From a virus, in the IMG/VR virus record IMGVR_UViG_3300021963_007569, positions 1-49,044 of that record: a stretch of DNA of 49,044 nt, one strand, 5' to 3'. The notes beneath the pieces were generated by a model. It saw nothing but the letters and a program-made list of their open reading frames with translations, was not told where the DNA came from and made no database searches. Below, piece after piece: positions 21,177 through 43,318 of the stretch. A program made the translations under genes and the position numbers. The first letter of the stretch is position 1; each line of letters begins with the position of its first letter.

Positions 21177-22703
21177 TTACCCTAATTTACCCATTAAATC
21201 TTTCATTCTTAAGAATTGAGGATTTTCATAAGTTTTTGATTCAATTAGAGTTGTCGATGAACCTGTAGAAACTGTTTTATTTAATTTTGTTGCTACTGAT
21301 TCGTTTATTGATTTACTTTCAACCTTATTTAATTCTTCTTTGATTGACTTGTAAAGATTTTTAGATTCTTTCAAGCTTTCAACATCGTCAAATCTTCTAA
21401 GGATGTTTATTTTTTCTTTTTTAGTCGTTGAGTGTTCAGTGAACAATCTTGTAGCGTAAGCTAAGTTTGAGTTGAAGATTGCAACTTCATTAAGTTTTTC
21501 TCTGAAAACATTTAATGCTTTTCTGTACTCTTCATTTTTTTCTCTCAACATTCTAACTTCTTCTTGAGTAGATTCAACTTTAACACCATTGTTACCATAA
21601 ACATAGTTTCTGTTATTAGTGATGCCCTTTCTTAATCCTCTACCTTCTTTAGAACCATTACCATAAGTTCTTGCTGCTTCTTTAGTTTCTTCTTTTTCAA
21701 AAGCTTTTCTTTTTAAAGTGTCACCTTTTTTAGTAGTGTAATCTTCTTTACCTTTCATAGTTTTAGATTTATCACCCTTATTCATTCCGTAATCACCTTC
21801 TTTAGTTTCAGCTTTAACAACTTTTGATTTACCTTCCATGTTAGCACCTTTTTTGTAATCAAATTTAGCTTTACCAGTACCAACAGATTTAGGACCTTGT
21901 TTCATGTCTTCTTTAAATCCACCTGTTGTTTTCTTGTAATCAAATTTAGGTTTACCCATACCAACACCTTTAGGTTTGTAGGTTTCATTAGTCAAATCAT
22001 CTTCCATCATGTCATCATCTTCCATCATGTCATCATCTTCCATCATGTCATCATCTTCCATCATGTCATCATCTTCCATCATGTGGTCGTCTTCATCAAG
22101 GTCAGATTCATCATCTAATGTGATTTCGTAAACAACATCTTCAGAATCAACATCTGACATATCACCACTAAAAATAGCGTCGATAACATCATCAACCGAT
22201 TCATCAGTTTCTTCGTCCATGTCTTCGTACATTTCTTCATCCATGTTTTCTTCCATTTCTTCAGATTCACCAAGTTTAACAAGATATTCTACATCAGCAT
22301 CATCGTCAGTTAAATGAACATTTTCACCGTCTTTTTTAACAATGATTCCGTCATCTTCACCCATCGCTTTGAATACTTTCAAAATTTCTTCGTCAGAAGC
22401 GTCAGTTAAATCAATTGGAGTTTCGTCTGAATCCATATCGAAGTCCATTTCCATATCATCAGAATCATCTGAATCAATATCCATGTCCACGTCTACTTCA
22501 TCATTATCAGCGGACATATTCATGTCAGCATCTAAGTCAACCTCATCTTCATCATCAGTTTGTTCTGAAAGAGATTCTTTTACTAATTGGTTGATTTCTT
22601 CCTTCATGGTAGAAGCAAGTATTCCTTTTGCATTTTCGGCAATTGCTTCTTCAACTTGTTTCATTTGAATTAGCGCCTCTTGAACTAATTTGTTTTCTTT
22701 CAT
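21177..22703 (-). CDS. Prohead core scaffold, T4 gp22-like
   Basis: A 508-residue protein with an extremely acidic N-terminal half: long Asp/Glu/Met runs such as EVDLDADMNMSADNDEVD, and a tandem MMEDDD repeat. A Lys/Gly-rich linker follows (GVGMGKPKFDYKK, repeated as SVGTGKAKFDYKK) and then a helical C-terminal third (EEVRMLREKNEEYRKALNVF). Position between protease and capsid genes and the acidic, helical make-up match gp22, the major core protein degraded by gp21 during maturation. It is nearly twice the length of T4 gp22 (269 residues). The N-terminus KLVQEALIQ could be its core-targeting end. A 130-nt leader precedes it. Confidence 0.75.
   Translation of the reverse strand: MKENKLVQEALIQMKQVEEAIAENAKGILASTMKEEINQLVKESLSEQTDDEDEVDLDADMNMSADNDEVDVDMDIDSDDSDDMEMDFDMDSDETPIDLTDASDEEILKVFKAMGEDDGIIVKKDGENVHLTDDDADVEYLVKLGESEEMEENMDEEMYEDMDEETDESVDDVIDAIFSGDMSDVDSEDVVYEITLDDESDLDEDDHMMEDDDMMEDDDMMEDDDMMEDDDMMEDDLTNETYKPKGVGMGKPKFDYKKTTGGFKEDMKQGPKSVGTGKAKFDYKKGANMEGKSKVVKAETKEGDYGMNKGDKSKTMKGKEDYTTKKGDTLKRKAFEKEETKEAARTYGNGSKEGRGLRKGITNNRNYVYGNNGVKVESTQEEVRMLREKNEEYRKALNVFREKLNEVAIFNSNLAYATRLFTEHSTTKKEKINILRRFDDVESLKESKNLYKSIKEELNKVESKSINESVATKLNKTVSTGSSTTLIESKTYENPQFLRMKDLMGKLG
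21997..22083. repeat. 18-bp tandem repeat inside the scaffold gene
   Basis: About five near-perfect copies of an 18-bp unit (plus strand ATCATCTTCCATCATGTC) encode five MMEDDD hexads, the last one incomplete, on the minus strand. In-frame copy-number change by slippage would alter only the acidic run. Confidence 0.9.
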
Positions 22704-34940: not shown

Positions 34941-36956
34941 ATGAACGATTTAATGGATGACGACGACAAAATGATGAGTAAAAAATCAAAATCAACTGCA
35001 GATTCAAACACACCCGTGTTAGACAATTTCAGTAGAGATTTGAATAAACTTGCAGAAGCAGGTAAACTTGACCCAGTTGTTGGTCGTGACCGTGAGATTT
35101 TGAGGGTTGCTCAAATCCTTTCTCGTAGAAAGAAAAACAACCCAATTATCATTGGTGAACCTGGTTGTGGTAAAACTGCACTTGTGGAAGGTTTGGCCAT
35201 CAAAATTGTAAATGGGGAATGTCCTCGTAACTTGATTGACAAACGTATTGTTAACCTTGACTTAACTTCAGTTGTTGCGGGTACAAAATACCGTGGACAA
35301 TTTGAAGAAAGAATGAAGGTGATTATTGAAGAACTTCAAGCTAACCCTAACATCATTGTATTCATTGATGAAATTCACACATTGGTTGGTTCAGGTAATT
35401 CTTCAGGTTCCATGGATGGTTCAAACATCTTCAAACCAGCACTTTCTCGTGGTGAACTTCAATGTATTGGAGCAACCACATTGGATGAGTTCCGTAAGAA
35501 CATTGAAAAAGACGGAGCATTGGAACGTAGATTCCAAAAAGTAATTGTTGAACCATCATCAGTTGCTGAAACAATCCAAATACTTAAGAATGTTCGTGAC
35601 AAATACGAAAACTTTCATAAAGTAAATTATAGTGATGAGGTTATTGAAACATGTGTTAAGTTGGCAGACCGATACATTACTGACCGAGAATTTCCTGATA
35701 AGGCATTCGATATCTTAGATGAAGTTGGTGCAAGAATGCAAACTGAATTAAAAGTCCCTGAAATTATTGAAGAACTCAAAAAGAAAGCGGCGGAAATCAA
35801 ACAACAAAAAATTGATGTTGTCAAAAAACAAAACTATGAACAGGCGGCAGAACTTCGTGATAAAGAGAAGAAATTACTTATCAAACTTGATGAAGAAAAA
35901 TTAAGGTTTGAATTACAAATGGCAAAAGAGAAACAAATCATCTTGTTGGAACATGTTTACGATGTGGTTTCAAACATGACCAAAATTCCTGTAAACAAAA
36001 TGAGTGTGGATGATACCAAAGCATTGTTGGATTTGGATAAAAACTTGATTGACAAAGTTATTGGTCAAAACGATGCGGTTATCAAGATTGCAAAATCTAT
36101 CAAAAGAAATCGTTTGGGTATTAAAGACCCTAACCGTCCAATTGGTTCATTCGTATTCTTGGGTTCAACAGGTGTCGGTAAAACTTATTTGGCAAAACAA
36201 ATGGCTAAAGAAATGTTTGGTTCTGAAGATTCACTTATCCGTGTGGATATGTCTGAATATCAAGAAAAACATACCGTATCTAAATTGGTTGGGGCTCCTC
36301 CAGGTTATGTTGGATACGAAGAGGGTGGATTGTTGACCGAGAAAGTTAAAAACAAACCGTATTCTGTAATCTTGTTCGACGAGGTTGAGAAGGCTCATAA
36401 AGATGTATTCACCATTTTACTTCAAATCTTGGATGATGGTCACGTTACGGATAGTTTGGGTCGAAAAATCAATTTCAAAAATACTTTGATTATTTTGACT
36501 TCAAACTTGGGTGTTAAAAAACTACAGGACTTTGGAACAGGTATTGGTTTCTCTTCTAACTCGTATAGTAACGAAGAAGCTAAGAAACAAATGTTAATGA
36601 AAGAAATGAAGAATTTCTTCTCTCCTGAGTTCTTAAACCGTATTGATGACACAATTGTATTCAATTCATTGTCTCAAGAAGACATTAAGAAGATTACAGG
36701 AATCGAATTGAATAAATTGGTGACTCGTCTTGTGGACATGAAATACAATATCAGCTACGATGAATCATTGGTTGAGTATCTATCAAAAATTGGTTTTGAT
36801 GAATTGTATGGGGCTCGTCCATTGAAAAGGGCCATTCAAGACAAAGTTGAAGACCTATTATCTGAAGAAGTTCTAACAGGTAAATTGGTTGAAGGTAAAA
36901 CTTATCTTATCAAAGTGATAGATGAACAAGTGGTTATCCAAAAGAAAGGTAGATAA
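34941..36956 (+). CDS. clpC: ClpC-like AAA+ unfoldase without N-domain
   Basis: A 671-residue double-ring Clp ATPase. The usual 140-residue Clp-N domain is missing; a 28-residue acidic/Lys leader is followed by LDNFSRDLNKLAEAGKLDPV. D1 has Walker A GEPGCGKT (72-79) and Walker B IVFIDEIH (139-146). A UVR motif lies at about 282-312 (VVKKQNYEQAAELRDKEKKL). D2 has GSTGVGKT (408-415), VILFDEVE (476-483) and an IGF tripeptide (535-537), the ClpP-docking loop. So it is ClpC-type and probably feeds host ClpP. It uses CGT arginine codons often, unlike its AGA-rich neighbours, which suggests host origin or selection for high expression. Confidence 0.88.
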   Translation: MNDLMDDDDKMMSKKSKSTADSNTPVLDNFSRDLNKLAEAGKLDPVVGRDREILRVAQILSRRKKNNPIIIGEPGCGKTALVEGLAIKIVNGECPRNLIDKRIVNLDLTSVVAGTKYRGQFEERMKVIIEELQANPNIIVFIDEIHTLVGSGNSSGSMDGSNIFKPALSRGELQCIGATTLDEFRKNIEKDGALERRFQKVIVEPSSVAETIQILKNVRDKYENFHKVNYSDEVIETCVKLADRYITDREFPDKAFDILDEVGARMQTELKVPEIIEELKKKAAEIKQQKIDVVKKQNYEQAAELRDKEKKLLIKLDEEKLRFELQMAKEKQIILLEHVYDVVSNMTKIPVNKMSVDDTKALLDLDKNLIDKVIGQNDAVIKIAKSIKRNRLGIKDPNRPIGSFVFLGSTGVGKTYLAKQMAKEMFGSEDSLIRVDMSEYQEKHTVSKLVGAPPGYVGYEEGGLLTEKVKNKPYSVILFDEVEKAHKDVFTILLQILDDGHVTDSLGRKINFKNTLIILTSNLGVKKLQDFGTGIGFSSNSYSNEEAKKQMLMKEMKNFFSPEFLNRIDDTIVFNSLSQEDIKKITGIELNKLVTRLVDMKYNISYDESLVEYLSKIGFDELYGARPLKRAIQDKVEDLLSEEVLTGKLVEGKTYLIKVIDEQVVIQKKGR

Positions 36957-36999: not shown

Positions 37000-37003
37000 T
37001 TTG

Positions 37004-37669
37004 ATGAAGAATTTAATCAAACAAATTTTAAAGGAAATTTTTGAAGAAAAACCTCAATCTAATCTCAATAGATTATTAGAAAAATTTAAAAATAATTTTC
37101 CTGAAGAATTAAAACCAAAGGTTGATTTAATTGAAAAGTTTGTTGTAAACTACATTCAAGACCATAATTTTACCGTTAAGTTTCTTAACTCATGTTCTAT
37201 AGGGTTTGCTGGTGTTAGGACCAAAGACCAAATTATTATTTGTTCTCCTAATAGTATGAGTACTCTTGGTGATTTTATTTATACCATATTTCATGAAATA
37301 AGACATGAAGAACAGATGGATAAAAATAGATTAGGATTAGACAATCCGTTAACTGATTATGATTTAGAAGATTTTGAAGAATTGTTTAAAAAATATTGGG
37401 AATTAGAAATGGATGCCGATAGATTTGGTAAAGAAATGGTTGCGAAACTTGTTATCAAACTTGGAATACCCATAGAAATTGCCAAAAAAGAATTAAAATT
37501 ATCCCCATATATTCAAAACTACCCACTAGTGTCAAATATGATTATGTCATCTTTAAAACAAATTGTTAATAGTATTAAAGACATAAAAAAATCGGGTGGA
37601 GAATTTACTGATATTCAAGACCACCCGATGGTAAAAAGACATTTAGATAAGTTAGAAAACTTTATTTAA
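37004..37669 (+). CDS. HExxH zinc metallopeptidase-like protein with CTS-like N-terminus
   Basis: A 221-residue protein. FIYTIFHEIRHEEQM carries His97-Glu98-x2-His101, and WELEMDADRFG (132-142) supplies the third ligand Glu135 with the ADRF pattern of gluzincin-type peptidases. The N-terminus MKNLIKQILKEIFEEK is a basic helix with L-K-E and F-E-E sites, like a packaged internal protein. I use ATG 37004 instead of the TTG one codon before. Its target is unknown; it may be injected with the genome to cut a host protein. It converges with the M20 peptidase gene, overlapping by four bases. Confidence 0.65.
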   Translation: MKNLIKQILKEIFEEKPQSNLNRLLEKFKNNFPEELKPKVDLIEKFVVNYIQDHNFTVKFLNSCSIGFAGVRTKDQIIICSPNSMSTLGDFIYTIFHEIRHEEQMDKNRLGLDNPLTDYDLEDFEELFKKYWELEMDADRFGKEMVAKLVIKLGIPIEIAKKELKLSPYIQNYPLVSNMIMSSLKQIVNSIKDIKKSGGEFTDIQDHPMVKRHLDKLENFI

Positions 37670-38505
37670 AATACGTTTCTTGTTCTCCAATCATATTTAA
37701 CTGATTTCTTGTGATGTAACTTGTTTCCAAGAGACTCAATCATTTTCTTACCCATATCAATTCCGTTAAAAACATCCTCAACAACAACATACTCATGTTT
37801 TGTGTGATAGTCGTAATATCCAATTGAAATGTTAATACAAGAGAAGTCAAACTTACCTCTTAAAGCATATACGTCAGTGTAAGGGTGAACCATATATTCC
37901 ATATAGTTATTATCCATTCCTTCAGTTAGTACTTTATCACAAGACTCAAAAAATTCTGAATCTCTATCAAATAAAACTTGACCAAAACATCTTTCTGTAA
38001 TCATCCAGTTTTCAGGTGCGTCAAATTGAATACCGTACCCAACGTTTTCAAAAAACTCTTCACTTGCTTTAAGAGAACCATGACAACCTGTTTCTTCAGA
38101 TACAAAAAACGCAGCTTTAACATTTGGTAATTCTTGTAATAATGTCAGACAAGCAAAAACACCACATTTGTCATCACCACCAATACCTGTTGGATTTCCT
38201 TCATCATTGTATGCTTTGTAAGATAATTTTTTTTCACCTTGAGCGTTTGGTAATATTTCCTCAACAACATTGATTGTGTCAATGTTGTGAACGGTGTCTG
38301 TATGGGAAATAACACACGGGAAATAAAAATCCTCAGGTAATTCTAATGATTCTTGTTTTGTAGCATATACATTATTAAATTCATCAACAAAGTGTGGAAT
38401 TTTATTTTCAGTTAACCAGTTAACCAAAAATGTAACCATTCTTTCCTCTTGATATGTTTTTGTTGGAACGCTTAATACGTCCTTTAGTAGTTCTAAATTA
38501 TTCAT
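37666..38505 (-). CDS. M20-family metallopeptidase, PepT-like
   Basis: A 279-residue protein with the two-zinc M20 layout: CVISHTDTVHN (His68, Asp70), GIGGDDKCGVFACLTLL (Asp111 bridging zinc), and FFVSEETGCHGS (Glu137-Glu138, catalytic base and ligand). Later HPYTDVYALR and YYDYHTKHEYVVVED provide further ligands, as in tripeptidase T and related exopeptidases. It is short for the family (about 400 residues) and may lack part of the dimerisation lid. M20 enzymes split small peptides, so it could recycle peptides from Clp-type proteolysis. A host-type promoter sits five bases before its ATG, predicting a leaderless message. Confidence 0.8.
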   Translation of the reverse strand: MNNLELLKDVLSVPTKTYQEERMVTFLVNWLTENKIPHFVDEFNNVYATKQESLELPEDFYFPCVISHTDTVHNIDTINVVEEILPNAQGEKKLSYKAYNDEGNPTGIGGDDKCGVFACLTLLQELPNVKAAFFVSEETGCHGSLKASEEFFENVGYGIQFDAPENWMITERCFGQVLFDRDSEFFESCDKVLTEGMDNNYMEYMVHPYTDVYALRGKFDFSCINISIGYYDYHTKHEYVVVEDVFNGIDMGKKMIESLGNKLHHKKSVKYDWRTRNVF

Positions 38506-38509
38506 GAAG

Positions 38510-38541
38510 CAAATATAAGAAATTTATTCTTAAACTTCAAA
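38510..38541 (-). promoter_or_regulatory. Bacteroidota-type promoter of the M20 peptidase gene
   Basis: On the minus strand TTTG (38538-38541), a 20-base spacer and TATATTTG (38510-38517). Only four bases separate the -7 element from the ATG at 38505, so the transcript would start at or next to the start codon. The -33 box lies inside the 3-prime end of the neighbouring gene. Confidence 0.65.
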
Positions 38542-40341
38542 TAAATCAAATAATTGTGGTGAATATAGTAAGTTATTAAAATTTTCTTCAGATAACTTTA
38601 GTCGGCGCATCCCTTTATATTGTTTTTCAATCATTATAATGACTCTCATATTTTCTCTGTCAAAACTTTCAACTTTAAATCCAACATTCTTATCAATAGG
38701 TAATTTATTCCATTTATTTAATCCAAATTTTTTAACAATTCTATTTCTAAATCCTAAAAACTCTTTAATTTTTTCTCCGCCAGAATCTTCATCCTCATAA
38801 AGTTTTTCCAAAATTTTATCAAATTGTCTTTCAACGGACCTATTAAACCCTTCACTATCAAAATTTTCCGAATCTTGGAATTCATATTGATTTTCCGACC
38901 AACCTCCAAAACTTATACCACTTTCACTAACAATCCTATTGAATAGTGATATTGCATCAACTTTTCTTAATCCTAATCTTACCGACCACATTAACATATT
39001 TGCAGCAGTCGTTTTTATTTCATCAAAACTTCTAACAAGTGAATATCCAATACTTTCAAGAAACGTCTCTATTTCTTTACTAATCTCATTTTTTGCCGTT
39101 GTCATCATTTCACTATCTTTTTCAGATTGATAGTCACCAAGAATATAATCAATTTGGTCTTCAAATAATACCTTTAAAATATTGGATAATTTAATTCTAT
39201 AATCTTCATTTTCCAAATCAAAATTTTCCTCAGGAATTATAATCTCGGCAATTTGTTTTAATTTTTCAAGATTATCATTATTTAATTCACCATAAACTAT
39301 ATATCCATTTTTGAAATCCTCATCAACGGTATATGAATCCATAAAGTCATAAGAACCATAAGAAGAAAACATACTATTAACAAACCAAATATCATCCTCA
39401 GATAAATCTAACACTTTAAAAAACTCCTCGTCATTTTTGAATTCAATATAAATTTCACTTTGACCTGCCGGATTGTAGGGTTGAACTTTCCTTATTGAAT
39501 CGTCTGAAAGTTCCAATTCACGATAATTAAGTTTACCTTTGGTAAATTCCCTAAGAGTTTTAATAAAATCACCAGTGCCTGACAATTCATCAATTAAATC
39601 AGTTTGGTTTGGAAAAGTGTCGATTAAAACGCTTAACGATACTTCATTATCTTGAGCATTATATACTTCAACTCTTCTTTGTTCATCATTTTTAAAAAGG
39701 GCATATTTTACGTTTTCTTTTTTCTTAATAAAATAATACAATTGACCCATGTTTCTGTATTTGTCAAAGTATCCTGAACCACCAGTACTACTTGTACACC
39801 ATTTTGTATTGGCACCATAATAACAAGACGCAGCATGTGTTTTTGGTTTTATAACCAAAACATCATCATCTTCATATAACTTATCGGCTTGAGACTTTAA
39901 TTCCCTTTCTCGGTCCCTAGAGCTTTTTTTACTATCAACAATCTCCATCAATGTTCTGATGAATTCAGGGTTTTCATATTGTATTATATCTTTGAATGCT
40001 TTTGCAATTCCCTCTATATTTGGAACCATTCCGTTTCGTTCTCTAAAAATTGTTTCCGCCTTCCAAATATCATCTTCAGTTATCCTATTTACATTATTAT
40101 GGAACCACGGAATAACCATCCCCAAAATACCCATAATGGCATCCTGTTGGTTAACAGTTAATCCACCTTTTGCGCCGGCTAATTGAGGTATAATCTTTTC
40201 AAGTTGTTTGGCAATATAATCAACGTATTTGTACCCTGTTGGGTCAACAGATAACATACGGTCAATAAATGAACCATCATATTCAAACCTCTGTTTTAGA
40301 CGTTTTGAAACATCTTCTTTTCTACCTTCTATTATAATCAC
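38530..40341 (-). CDS. Unknown protein with ASC-YGA-WCT motif (paralogue 1)
   Basis: A 603-residue protein. The block LYEDDDVLVIKPKTHAASC, then YYGANTKWCTSS (about 155-185), is shared with the 501-residue gene at 40944 (LFEDKNILIVKPLTYEASC, KYGAGTRWCTTM), as is the N-terminal GRKED segment. The two genes flank the tmRNA gene on opposite strands. The paired cysteines and the invariant Tyr, Trp and Thr suggest a catalytic or metal-binding core, but I know no function. The C-terminal half differs between the two and may bind targets. The start is GTG 40339-40341, preceded by a TATTTATA. The N-terminus MIIIEGRKED could be a short packaging signal. Confidence 0.6.
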   Translation of the reverse strand: MIIIEGRKEDVSKRLKQRFEYDGSFIDRMLSVDPTGYKYVDYIAKQLEKIIPQLAGAKGGLTVNQQDAIMGILGMVIPWFHNNVNRITEDDIWKAETIFRERNGMVPNIEGIAKAFKDIIQYENPEFIRTLMEIVDSKKSSRDRERELKSQADKLYEDDDVLVIKPKTHAASCYYGANTKWCTSSTGGSGYFDKYRNMGQLYYFIKKKENVKYALFKNDEQRRVEVYNAQDNEVSLSVLIDTFPNQTDLIDELSGTGDFIKTLREFTKGKLNYRELELSDDSIRKVQPYNPAGQSEIYIEFKNDEEFFKVLDLSEDDIWFVNSMFSSYGSYDFMDSYTVDEDFKNGYIVYGELNNDNLEKLKQIAEIIIPEENFDLENEDYRIKLSNILKVLFEDQIDYILGDYQSEKDSEMMTTAKNEISKEIETFLESIGYSLVRSFDEIKTTAANMLMWSVRLGLRKVDAISLFNRIVSESGISFGGWSENQYEFQDSENFDSEGFNRSVERQFDKILEKLYEDEDSGGEKIKEFLGFRNRIVKKFGLNKWNKLPIDKNVGFKVESFDRENMRVIIMIEKQYKGMRRLKLSEENFNNLLYSPQLFDLFEV

Positions 40342-40371: not shown

Positions 40372-40402
40372 TTTGGAATTTCAATATTTATTGTTACCTT
40401 TG
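40372..40402 (+). promoter_or_regulatory. Bacteroidota-type promoter of the tmRNA transcript
   Basis: TTTG (40372-40375), a 19-base spacer and an exact -7 TACCTTTG (40395-40402). Transcription should start near 40407-40410, about 100 bases before the mature tmRNA. It is the best host-type promoter in the window and predicts expression by unmodified host polymerase. Confidence 0.75.
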
Positions 40403-40408
40403 TACAAC

Positions 40409-40488
40409 AAATCACGGGTGGCTCCCTTAATAGTTAAGGCTGACCTTAAGCATCTGACGTAAGTCTATACAGGGGGCGAAAGTGATTT
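40409..40488 (+). ncRNA. Structured 5-prime leader of the tmRNA transcript
   Basis: AAATCAC (40409-40415) can pair with GTGATTT (40482-40488), closing an 80-nt domain that begins at the predicted transcription start. Inside, GCTCCC can pair with GGGGGC, and CTTAA/TTAAG and GAC-GTAA-GTC hairpins are possible. It is too long and lacks a T-arm, so it is not a tRNA. The likely outcome is removal by RNase P at 40508. It could be a separate small RNA or a riboswitch-like leader; neither is recognised. Confidence 0.4.
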
Positions 40489-40507
40489 AATGTTCTTTGA
40501 AAAATAT

Positions 40508-40890
40508 GGGGGTGCACGGTATTGATTGGCATAGTTGGGGATACGTGGCATGTCGAAGCTGAATTAACTTCGTTATCAACTGATTTAAAACAACAGACGG
40601 CAACGTTCTAAACAAAATGGCTCTATTAGGTCTTGTAAAACAAGATGAGCTTGTAGAAGTAGCTTAGTATACACTACATTCGGGTCGGGAAGATATGTAC
40701 CCAGGAACAGAAATCTTTATAAGGTAGAAAAACGACTGAACCTTAACTCGAGTCGTCCATTGGTTGTTAGGTTTACGATGGTGAAGAACAAACCGACTAT
40801 TTCGGAACATTAGAAAATGTTGACCTAAACATGTAGTCATTTATTGTCAAAATGAACAAGACGAGGGTTCGAATCCCTCCACCTCCACCA
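40508..40890 (+). ncRNA. ssrA: tmRNA (SsrA) with atypical long tag
   Basis: The 383-nt gene has a tRNA-like 5-prime end GGGGGTG pairing with CACCTCC (40880-40886), a D-like GCACGGTATTGATTGGCAT, a T-arm GAGGGTTCGAATCCCTC (40863-40879) and an encoded ACCA end. The tag frame follows AACAGAC, the sequence expected before the resume codon in Bacteroidota tmRNAs: GGC at 40599 to TAG at 40665-40667. It encodes 22 residues, starting GNVLNKMALL and ending KQDELVEVA. Bacteroidota tags are usually about nine residues and end in ALAA. tmRNA with SmpB rescues stalled ribosomes and tags the nascent chain; this one would add a longer tag with a changed C-terminus. Confidence 0.9.
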
Positions 40891-40943: not shown

Positions 40944-42449
40944 ATGAGATTAACGCCAATCCTTATACAAGAGGGTCGTAAAGAAGATTTACGAAAAAAA
41001 TACACTGAAAAATTTAAGGAATATCCTGAAACTTTGGAGTTTATTTTGGGTATTTCTGACTTAGCCGATACCAACTTCAAATATGCAGATTTTGTGTTAA
41101 AGAACACACATCCAAACTCATCTCCTGAAGAAGTTGAACATATTATAGACCTTGTTAAAGATTTTGACCGATTTCAACAATCATTAGAAATCAAAGATAT
41201 TAACAAGTATGACATCTATAAATTAGTTTCTGCAATAGACAAACACAGGGAAATGTCTAAATCCCAACAAAAGAAATCATTTGATACTTCAGGTGCTAAA
41301 AAATTATTTGAGGACAAAAATATTTTAATTGTTAAACCTTTAACTTACGAAGCGTCTTGTAAATACGGAGCGGGAACCAGATGGTGTACAACCATGGCTG
41401 GTCAACCATCTTATTTTGAAAGTCACACTAAAGAAGACCAAGGGTTATATTACATCATTCTTAAAAATTTTAATAAAGATAATAAATTTTATAAGATAGC
41501 CATTCACATGACACCAAATGTAGAAACTTGGTATGACTCAACTGATGAAAGAATGTCAGATAGAGAAAAAGAAGTTTTTAATTTAGGGGCTCCAAAAGTT
41601 ATTGAGACTATTAGAGAAGATTTCAAAGAATCTCAAAAAGAACGAGGTAAATTATTTTTCAAAAAGTTATTTGATTTTTACAATTATAAATTTGAAGATG
41701 TATCATCGGCGTTTAAAGGAACAAAAAATAAAATAGGACTTGAATTTCAAAAACCAGACCTTATTCCTGATATGCCAGGGCATGCAACAATGGAATTGAA
41801 CATCTCTGTTGATGAGGAAAATATAGACCAATATTTAGTTATGATTACCTTTGACATTAAAGATAAAATCTTTTTTAATATTGGTTATTCTGGAGATAAT
41901 TTTGAAATTGAACCTGAATTTGATTTTGGTATTGAAAATGTTTCAACACACTTTCAGATACCTGTAGGGTTTCTTAACAACCCGTCTGATAAAAATATTA
42001 AATCTTTTTTTAATGAGCTTTGTTGGACAATTTCAAAACAAGTTGTTTATAGAATGAAAATGAATAATGAATTCATATCATCAATTCATGGTGGACAAGC
42101 TGTTTGGACGCCAAATAGAAGTAGTTACGGATTTACATTTAAAGAAAACAAAGGTATGGTAAAAAAATTGGTTGATTATTTGGATTCAGATAAGTCAGGA
42201 ACCAAATTAGATTTCTTAACCGACATTGGAGTATTAGAGAAAAAAGATGTCAACGGAAAACCATATTTCTCAAGAGTTGGTCAAAACGATTGGCATATTG
42301 CATCCAAATGGAGAGGTCAACACAGCGGATTCTTTAACTCGGCAAAAATTTCAGGAATATTAGATTACGACAAAAAAGGAAATCAATTTTATCTTAAGAA
42401 AGGTCCGAACTTTGAAAAATTCAAATTGGGTCAATTAAAGGCTCTTTAA
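40944..42449 (+). CDS. Unknown protein with ASC-YGA-WCT motif (paralogue 2)
   Basis: A 501-residue paralogue of the gene at 38530. It shares the N-terminal EGRKEDLRKKY and the block ILIVKPLTYEASCKYGAGTRW followed by CTT (about 128-150). The region after the block (QGLYYIILKNFNKDNKFYKI) aligns with GQLYYFIKKKENVKYALFKN of the partner. The N-terminus MRLTPILIQE contains I-Q-E, compatible with prohead-protease cleavage. The C-terminal 350 residues are unlike the partner and end in LKKGPNFEKFKLGQLKAL. Function unknown. It follows the tmRNA terminator and has a TATTTATT variant four bases before the ATG, so it probably has its own late promoter. Confidence 0.6.
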   Translation: MRLTPILIQEGRKEDLRKKYTEKFKEYPETLEFILGISDLADTNFKYADFVLKNTHPNSSPEEVEHIIDLVKDFDRFQQSLEIKDINKYDIYKLVSAIDKHREMSKSQQKKSFDTSGAKKLFEDKNILIVKPLTYEASCKYGAGTRWCTTMAGQPSYFESHTKEDQGLYYIILKNFNKDNKFYKIAIHMTPNVETWYDSTDERMSDREKEVFNLGAPKVIETIREDFKESQKERGKLFFKKLFDFYNYKFEDVSSAFKGTKNKIGLEFQKPDLIPDMPGHATMELNISVDEENIDQYLVMITFDIKDKIFFNIGYSGDNFEIEPEFDFGIENVSTHFQIPVGFLNNPSDKNIKSFFNELCWTISKQVVYRMKMNNEFISSIHGGQAVWTPNRSSYGFTFKENKGMVKKLVDYLDSDKSGTKLDFLTDIGVLEKKDVNGKPYFSRVGQNDWHIASKWRGQHSGFFNSAKISGILDYDKKGNQFYLKKGPNFEKFKLGQLKAL

Positions 42450-42745: not shown

Positions 42746-43318
42746 ATGAAAGTTATATTTTTGGACCATGACGGAGTAATCTGTCTATCCTCAGAGTGGG
42801 GTGGTCGTTTTAAGAAACAAAATAAATGGGGAGGTCGTAAATTGTCTATGACAACTTTAGAAATGCCGTTAGAATACCGTTTTGATAACTTTAATAAAAA
42901 GGCGGTAAAAATTTTAAATGAAATTTTAGAAGAAACCAATGCTGAAATTGTGGTATCATCAGATTGGAAACGTTGGGCCTCTGTTGAAGAAATGGGTGAA
43001 TACTACGAATCACAGGGAATCGTAAAAAAACCAATTGGATTTACGGATTCAATACTTTACGACAATTATGAGGACTTTCCTTGGCATAGAAGTATTGAAT
43101 TGGAACAAACTCGTAGTTTGGAAATCGCAGAATATTTAACATCATACAAATCAATCTTAAAATGGGTTGCAATTGATGATTTGGATATGTCTTTACGAAG
43201 AACTGAGGATGGTCAATATAGTTGGGGGTTAAATAATTTTGTACTAACTCCAAATAGTCGAGAAGGGATTAAACAATCAGGAATAAAAGAAAAAGTAATT
43301 AAATTTTTAAATGGTTAA
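42746..43318 (+). CDS. HAD-superfamily phosphatase/hydrolase-like protein
   Basis: A 190-residue protein. FLDHDGVICL (5-14) is HAD motif I with nucleophile Asp7 and acid Asp9, IVVSSDWKRWASVEEM is motif II, and WVAIDDLDMSL is motif IV with the metal-binding aspartates. The pattern resembles HAD domains seen in RNA repair and in small phage phosphatases. Unlike the HAD-like gene at 6187, its catalytic residues are intact. It heads a five-gene plus-strand group with its own host-type promoter, so expression may be early. The substrate, nucleotide or RNA end, is not readable. Confidence 0.75.
   Translation: MKVIFLDHDGVICLSSEWGGRFKKQNKWGGRKLSMTTLEMPLEYRFDNFNKKAVKILNEILEETNAEIVVSSDWKRWASVEEMGEYYESQGIVKKPIGFTDSILYDNYEDFPWHRSIELEQTRSLEIAEYLTSYKSILKWVAIDDLDMSLRRTEDGQYSWGLNNFVLTPNSREGIKQSGIKEKVIKFLNG

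Follow-up and report, generated by a model that had tools for sequence, protein, structure and literature searches.

The virus represented by the IMG/VR fragment IMGVR_UViG_3300021963_007569 carries a tmRNA gene whose 22-residue tag lacks the terminal LAA or MAA of host tags, and its relatives encode tags of similar length together with a ClpC-type unfoldase and, in records that extend far enough, ClpP. These sequence features suggest that these large viruses run a protein disposal line apart from that of the host. The reading we favour, with moderate confidence, is that a private degron, appended by the phage tmRNA, would feed phage ClpC-ClpP. Throughout the text, the window denotes the whole stretch of DNA that was analysed (49,044 bases), which also carries genes of T4-like type for the head and for packaging, namely those of the major head protein, the portal and the terminase, and a tRNA gene cluster at 46.6-48.4 kb.

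Identification of the tmRNA gene

The tmRNA (ssrA) gene is of the one-piece type, lies on the plus strand at 40508..40890 and has its CCA encoded. A search of the window with RF00023 returns this region with a score of 95.7 bits (gathering score 47) and an E-value of 3.8e-36, and the match covers the full model from 1 to 374. This full-length match, together with a reading frame that is kept in 91 viral tmRNAs, establishes that the tmRNA proposed for this region in an earlier note made from the letters of the DNA is real. ARAGORN run on the window does not detect the tmRNA at 40508-40890, and a blastn search with the window tmRNA against known phages returns no match.

The same note described the tRNA-like end and the encoded CCA as intact, and the alignment agrees. 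The 5' strand of the acceptor stem, GGGGGTG (40508..40514, plus strand), pairs with CACCTCC at 40880-40886 to give a GGGGGUG/CACCUCC stem with 7/7 positions paired and the G3.U70 pair present. A whole T arm, the 3' strand of the acceptor stem and the encoded ACCA occupy 40863..40890 of the same strand in the RF00023 alignment. Among 80 distinct viral tmRNA sequences the acceptor stem is 7/7 paired in all 80, and G3.U70 is invariant. Acceptor pairs 1-3 are G-C, G-C and G.U without exception, and pairs 4-7 are each represented by two to six pair types with many two-sided swaps. As read from these sequences, the alanine identity element is held while the remaining acceptor pairs covary. The T stem is 5/5 paired in 72 of the 80 distinct relatives, and CCA is encoded in most relatives as it is in the window. 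The acceptor and T stems also form in a single-sequence fold of the window tmRNA, which is no more stable than shuffled sequences (z -0.70), so that support for the tmRNA rests on the covariance model and on covariation. The RF00023 alignment runs through the mRNA-like part, where pseudoknots would lie, with low posterior values in places. The tmRNA would be charged with alanine and would tag with the help of SmpB.

Upstream of the tmRNA on the plus strand is a Bacteroidota-type -7 box, TAnnTTTG (approximately 40393..40405), and a motif similar to it, TATTTATnnTTAnnTTTG, is located upstream of the tmRNAs of many relatives. In the window, the TAnnTTTG motif is separated from the 5' end of the tmRNA by about 90 bases (40408-40507). 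A similar leader, TCTATACAGGGGGCGAAAGTGATTT, is present in L003, L006, L011, L012 and L023, and is absent elsewhere, with the promoter abutting the tmRNA. The boxA-like element ATGTTCTTTGAAAA (40484..40500, plus strand) adjoins the tmRNA 5' end. GTTCTTT is found at most 60 bases upstream of the tmRNA in 43/87 relatives, and a stretch similar to the boxA-like element precedes the tmRNA of a Bacteroidota host (L388). The occurrence of such elements at both phage and host tmRNAs hints at a shared role in antitermination.

Collection of related tmRNAs

Relatives are gathered with three independent handles: the ClpC-like protein, which yields 80 loci, the gene downstream of the tmRNA, which yields 18 loci, and a DNA pattern of the tmRNA 3' end, which yields 49 stretches. 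The Rfam model finds a tmRNA above its cut-off in 40/50 and 26/33 related viral records. Rfam matches and DNA-pattern matches together provide the 91 tmRNAs from which clade tags are decoded. Several relatives' tmRNAs that the Rfam model misses are recovered with a phage-specific profile, including those of four long ClpC records (G038, G040, G092 and G094) that had appeared to lack the gene. Phage tmRNAs can thus go undetected, given that ARAGORN misses that of the window and the Rfam model those of several relatives.

Some matches fall outside the clade. L126 and L133, which match the tmRNA pattern, come from another phage lineage, whose tag has 25 residues (GDILNVEENFFATASRSFAGEVAVA), and their records also have ClpP without a close ClpC. 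The tmRNA of a 484-kb huge phage (L338; LR756508.1, 92434-92880) has an apparent 36-residue tag ending in KPAAV, and the tmRNA of LR756511.1 instead encodes the short, host-like tag ANPEFAMAA. A tmRNA is also detected in Bacillus phage G.

Tag reading frame and peptide

By the covariance alignment, GGC 40599 is the resume codon. The resulting tag frame (40599..40667, plus strand) consists of 22 codons followed by TAG (40665-40667) and encodes GNVLNKMALLGLVKQDELVEVA, which matches the coordinates and the peptide that the earlier note had given. An A stands at position -4 relative to the resume codon in 80/80 distinct relatives, and the GGC resume codon of host tmRNAs sits in the same context.

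Every clade tag decoded from the 91 viral tmRNAs is 21 or 22 residues long. These tags comprise 43 distinct peptides. None of them (0/43) has LAA or MAA at its C-terminus, and the earlier proposal that the 22-residue tag of the window is not ALAA-like is right. At 21-22 residues and with no LAA or MAA end, the tags are not of the canonical short ClpXP type. VAA is the end of 8/43 distinct tags, and some clade tags terminate in TI or VS. For the 87 tmRNAs located in the fetched loci with the phage-specific profile, the tag has 21 residues in 69 and 22 residues in 18. The most conserved tag segment is internal, K-[ML]-x-x-[LIVF]-G-L. Within the 39 distinct 21-residue tags, G11 is present in 39/39, K6 and L12 in 38/39 each, G1 in 37/39 and a terminal A in 35/39, and the residues between L12 and V18 vary.

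Substitution ratios are computed between nearest-neighbour tag sequences. Nonsynonymous relative to synonymous change amounts to ~0.44 in the tag frame of the 21-codon set and 0.24 in that of the 22-codon set, and the two alternative frames give 0.82/1.65 and 0.66/3.9. By this comparison purifying selection is present in the tag frame, with an in-frame dN/dS that is only moderately low. Since synonymous change is favoured solely in the tag frame, the tag is in all likelihood made as a peptide and is under selection as such, and it is most likely the tag length and the internal core, not a terminal LAA, that are under constraint. A search for the tag motif in the other proteins of the clade loci recovers solely the tmRNA tag itself. 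The candidate idea of a shared C-terminal degron on other clade proteins is rejected on this result, which also means that no second substrate backs a ClpC recognition motif.

Comparison with host tmRNAs

The bacterial ClpC proteins nearest to that of the phage are from Flavobacteriia and other Bacteroidota, at 57-61% identity. On the basis of these proteins and the TAnnTTTG promoter motif, the virus family probably infects Bacteroidota bacteria. For the host comparison, 30 tmRNA loci are fetched from Flavobacteriia/Bacteroidota genomes. The host tags that can be read are 9-10 residues long, with LAA or MAA at the end, as in GENNYALAA, DNTSYRLAA and GNTEYAMAA, and one further Bacteroidota genome has the tag ANDYAFAMTA, which is short and without an LAA or MAA end. 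The earlier statement that Bacteroidota tags are short is thus borne out in the sampled genomes, nearly all of whose tags have these ends. Bacteroidota ssrA (GENNYALAA and kin) shares its resume-codon context and one-piece architecture with the phage tmRNA, but the phage tag is twice as long and has a different end.

A degenerate tag pattern, which covers part of the tag variants, matches 96 of 396 Bacteroidota genomes, a chance-like rate. In the four matched genomes whose tmRNA was examined the tags are short, and a phage-type tag is rejected for them. One match of the degenerate pattern is a boxA-like stretch just upstream of a host tmRNA.

Linked ClpC, ClpP and SmpB genes

The ClpC-like unfoldase that had been noted nearby is encoded at 34941..36956 on the plus strand and ends 3.55 kb upstream of the tmRNA. 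Pfam, PHROG and structure alignment identify it as an N-domain-less ClpC-type AAA+ unfoldase. Its Pfam domains are AAA, AAA_lid_9, UVR, AAA_2 and ClpB_D2-small, and it matches phrog_4871 with an E-value of 9.9e-240. The protein has two AAA+ modules with both ATPase sites, a short UVR-type middle domain, a GYVG pore loop and a ClpP-docking IGF loop (TGIGFSS). It aligns to residues 146-793 of ClpC 6em8, and the N-terminal adaptor-binding domain is missing. Because the alignment starts only at residue 146, the protein is named ClpC-like without N domain.

In 69/80 ClpC loci, ClpC is followed by the tmRNA on its own strand at a distance of 2.1-5.6 kb, and the other 11 end at the contig edge before the tmRNA position. 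Among 30 decoded records fetched by the tmRNA DNA pattern alone, ClpC is present in 23/23 with the clade tag, at 64-82% identity, and in 0/7 with other tags, a co-occurrence that constitutes an association and not a count of independent events because the records are mutually related. In 13 large records, made up of 11 from the clade (three of them >300 kb) and two from huge phages, this ClpC is the sole ClpA/B/C/X-type ATPase (ClpB_D2-small) detected, and a search for Lon in the same 13 records finds none.

ClpP is found in 22/22 records that reach at least 29 kb past ClpC, on the same strand and 14-30 kb after it, and in 0/14 records that extend less than 29 kb. The window reaches 12 kb past ClpC, and neither ClpP nor SmpB is found within it. 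Pfam matches to ClpP occur in 27 related viral records with E-values of 1.9e-51 to 7.0e-59. Alignment to 1y7o shows that the relatives' ClpP keeps the Ser-His-Asp residues in GMAASMG, MLHQ and RD motifs, and the best NCBIfam match is PRK14514, below the cut-off of that model. Identification of these proteins as prohead (head-maturation) proteases is rejected, since they score far better as ClpP.

SmpB is present in 2/45 related viral records, and most members would therefore need to rely on host SmpB. In L342 (G046), smpB is directly 3' of the tmRNA on the same strand (tmRNA 21596-21995, SmpB 22136-22543), and its product aligns nearly full length to solved SmpB proteins. SmpB is also found in two huge phages of 0.63-0.64 Mb that have ClpC and ClpP.

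Peptidase genes next to ClpC

The gene directly after ClpC (37001..37669, plus strand) encodes a metalloprotease-like protein with an HExxH motif (HEIRHE). This motif is invariant in 18 relatives, which rules out the gene as an SspB-like adaptor, and a fold search returns weak matches with zincins among the top ones. On the minus strand, 37666..38505 encodes a protein assigned from PF01546 (E 3.9e-6) and structure as a PepT-like aminopeptidase of the M20/M42 fold without the lid domain. It also matches phrog_4191, annotated as 'peptidase', and its predicted structure (pLDDT 86) matches PepT 3gb0 with a TMq of 0.70 and an E-value of 5.8e-10. The PepT-like aminopeptidase is present in 78/80 loci, and the two proteins would fit a local peptide-recycling cluster.

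Proposed pathway and alternatives

From these genes and their features we infer that the phage tmRNA is expressed, charged and used with SmpB, that its tag is recognised by ClpC and escapes host ClpXP, and that amino acids are recycled. The phage would put its own tmRNA in place of the mRNA part of the host trans-translation system. Host AlaRS would charge this tmRNA via G3.U70, and it would work with host SmpB in most members. During infection this tmRNA would enter ribosomes stalled on damaged or cleaved mRNAs and append the 21-22-residue tag. The private degron would have an internal core (K[ML]xx[LIVF]GL, then V/T near the end), unlike the terminal LAA of the host, and would send tagged fragments to a phage protease composed of the N-domain-less ClpC, which would need no N-domain adaptors, and phage ClpP. 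The PepT-like aminopeptidase and the HExxH protease may then finish the peptides to amino acids. The earlier note had suggested that the tag may either avoid host degradation or redirect tagged proteins to the phage ClpC. The ClpC linkage, the phage ClpP, the IGF loop and the lack of a detected Lon or second ATPase all favour redirection, with reading of the tag by ClpC, and not by host proteases, as predictions. Related phages may keep the same gene neighbourhood even where the genes do not work together, no adaptor was identified, and the phage ClpC could act as a disaggregase or on other substrates. For the most complete version, an orthogonal quality-control line with its own tmRNA and degron, adaptor-independent ClpC-ClpP and recycling peptidases that would run beside host ssrA-ClpXP and override it during infection, we consider the chances evenly balanced.

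ClpXP and Lon are generally present in Bacteroidota. The tag may be read by one of them, by ClpXP through a terminal small residue and Ala or by Lon through internal hydrophobics, with phage ClpC-ClpP serving other tasks; we regard this as unlikely, and as the alternative that survives best. The terminal Ala of 35/39 distinct 21-residue tags and the VAA end of 8/43 distinct tags would suit it, as VAA-ended tags might still be accepted by host ClpX, and there is a precedent in the long tag of Mesoplasma florum, which Lon reads (PMC9382460, PMC10873288). The absence of LAA or MAA, the TI or VS ends of some tags and the internal position of the conserved core argue against it, as does the fact that every record in which it could be checked couples the tag with ClpC and ClpP of the phage.

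Compared with a private degron for ClpC-ClpP, a non-degradative or slow tag is a distinctly improbable explanation. Rescue would then leave fragments stable, or the phage tmRNA would outcompete that of the host so that fragments escape ClpXP, in keeping with the loss of the host LAA end and with a presumed sparing of energy late in infection. A stabilising tag need not keep an internal motif or a length of 21-22 residues, however, and the linkage to ClpC and ClpP would be left unexplained. The explanation that the tag region is kept for RNA structure or through recent descent, and not for its peptide, is already disfavoured and has very little probability. tmRNAs do have pseudoknots and hairpins around the tag, and a single-strand fold puts a hairpin inside the tag frame, but the substitutions are codon-periodic with synonymous change favoured in frame 0 alone, and the tag length is held as a number of codons across 43 distinct peptides. 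Finally, although tmRNA genes are phage integration sites (PMC3029335), acquisition of a non-functional host tmRNA fragment as a passenger has a negligible probability and is already refuted by sequence conservation, the gene being full length and intact in 80/80 distinct sequences with compensatory changes, having a non-host-like tag and its own promoter motif, and being present in every adequately long locus.

Relation to known systems

tmRNAs of phages, their Clp proteins and the switching of a tag to another protease (in Mollicutes, with Lon) are each already known separately. The long ssrA tag of Mesoplasma florum is read by Lon (Gur and Sauer 2008, cited in PMC10873288 and PMC9382460). 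The Mollicutes system is alike in that a long tag of a tmRNA no longer has an end of the ClpXP type and is now paired with another protease. It differs in that the genome is cellular, without ClpXP, and uses Lon, whereas here a virus has the long tag, its presumed host keeps an ordinary one, ClpC-ClpP is the protease linked to it, and Lon is not detected.

Complete tmRNA genes are known from mycobacteriophages and Bacillus phage G, for which no linked phage ClpC and ClpP are reported and the tags are not compared with a phage protease (PMC4131195). Huge phages have tmRNA and SmpB (PMC7162821), and tag-and-degrade recycling has been proposed for the tmRNAs of Melnitz-type phages (PMC9004378). 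These phages share trans-translation parts with the present clade, but the accessible portions of the two reports describe no private tag or matched phage protease. The huge-phage survey relied on ARAGORN, which misses the window tmRNA (PMC7162821). Agrobacterium phage Atu_ph07 shares phage Clp proteins in the form of ClpA/B/X/P homologues, but no tmRNA is reported (PMC6102473), and our tmRNA search of its record returns tRNA-sized matches alone. A search confined to the open literature found no paper describing a phage-specific tag that is conserved and linked to ClpC and ClpP of the phage.

If true, the private-degron reading would describe a virus-encoded tag-and-destroy pathway orthogonal to that of the host. 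It would also make testable why some phages carry tmRNAs, whether for rescue alone or for control over the fate of the products of stalled ribosomes, as could matter where mRNA or tRNA is cleaved by host defences, to name one case. The tag and protease would then form a natural case of co-specialisation beside that of Mollicutes and possibly a new orthogonal degron-protease pair.

Other genes near the tmRNA

The tmRNA is flanked by two large uncharacterised proteins encoded on opposite strands at 38530-40341 and 40944-42449. Both match PHROG 17056 and 28193 and therefore look like paralogs. Farther along, near the tmRNA and the tRNA cluster, 42746-43318 encodes a protein matching HAD_SAK_2 (RNA-repair-type HAD) with an E-value of 4.4e-20, which possibly repairs cleaved RNA.
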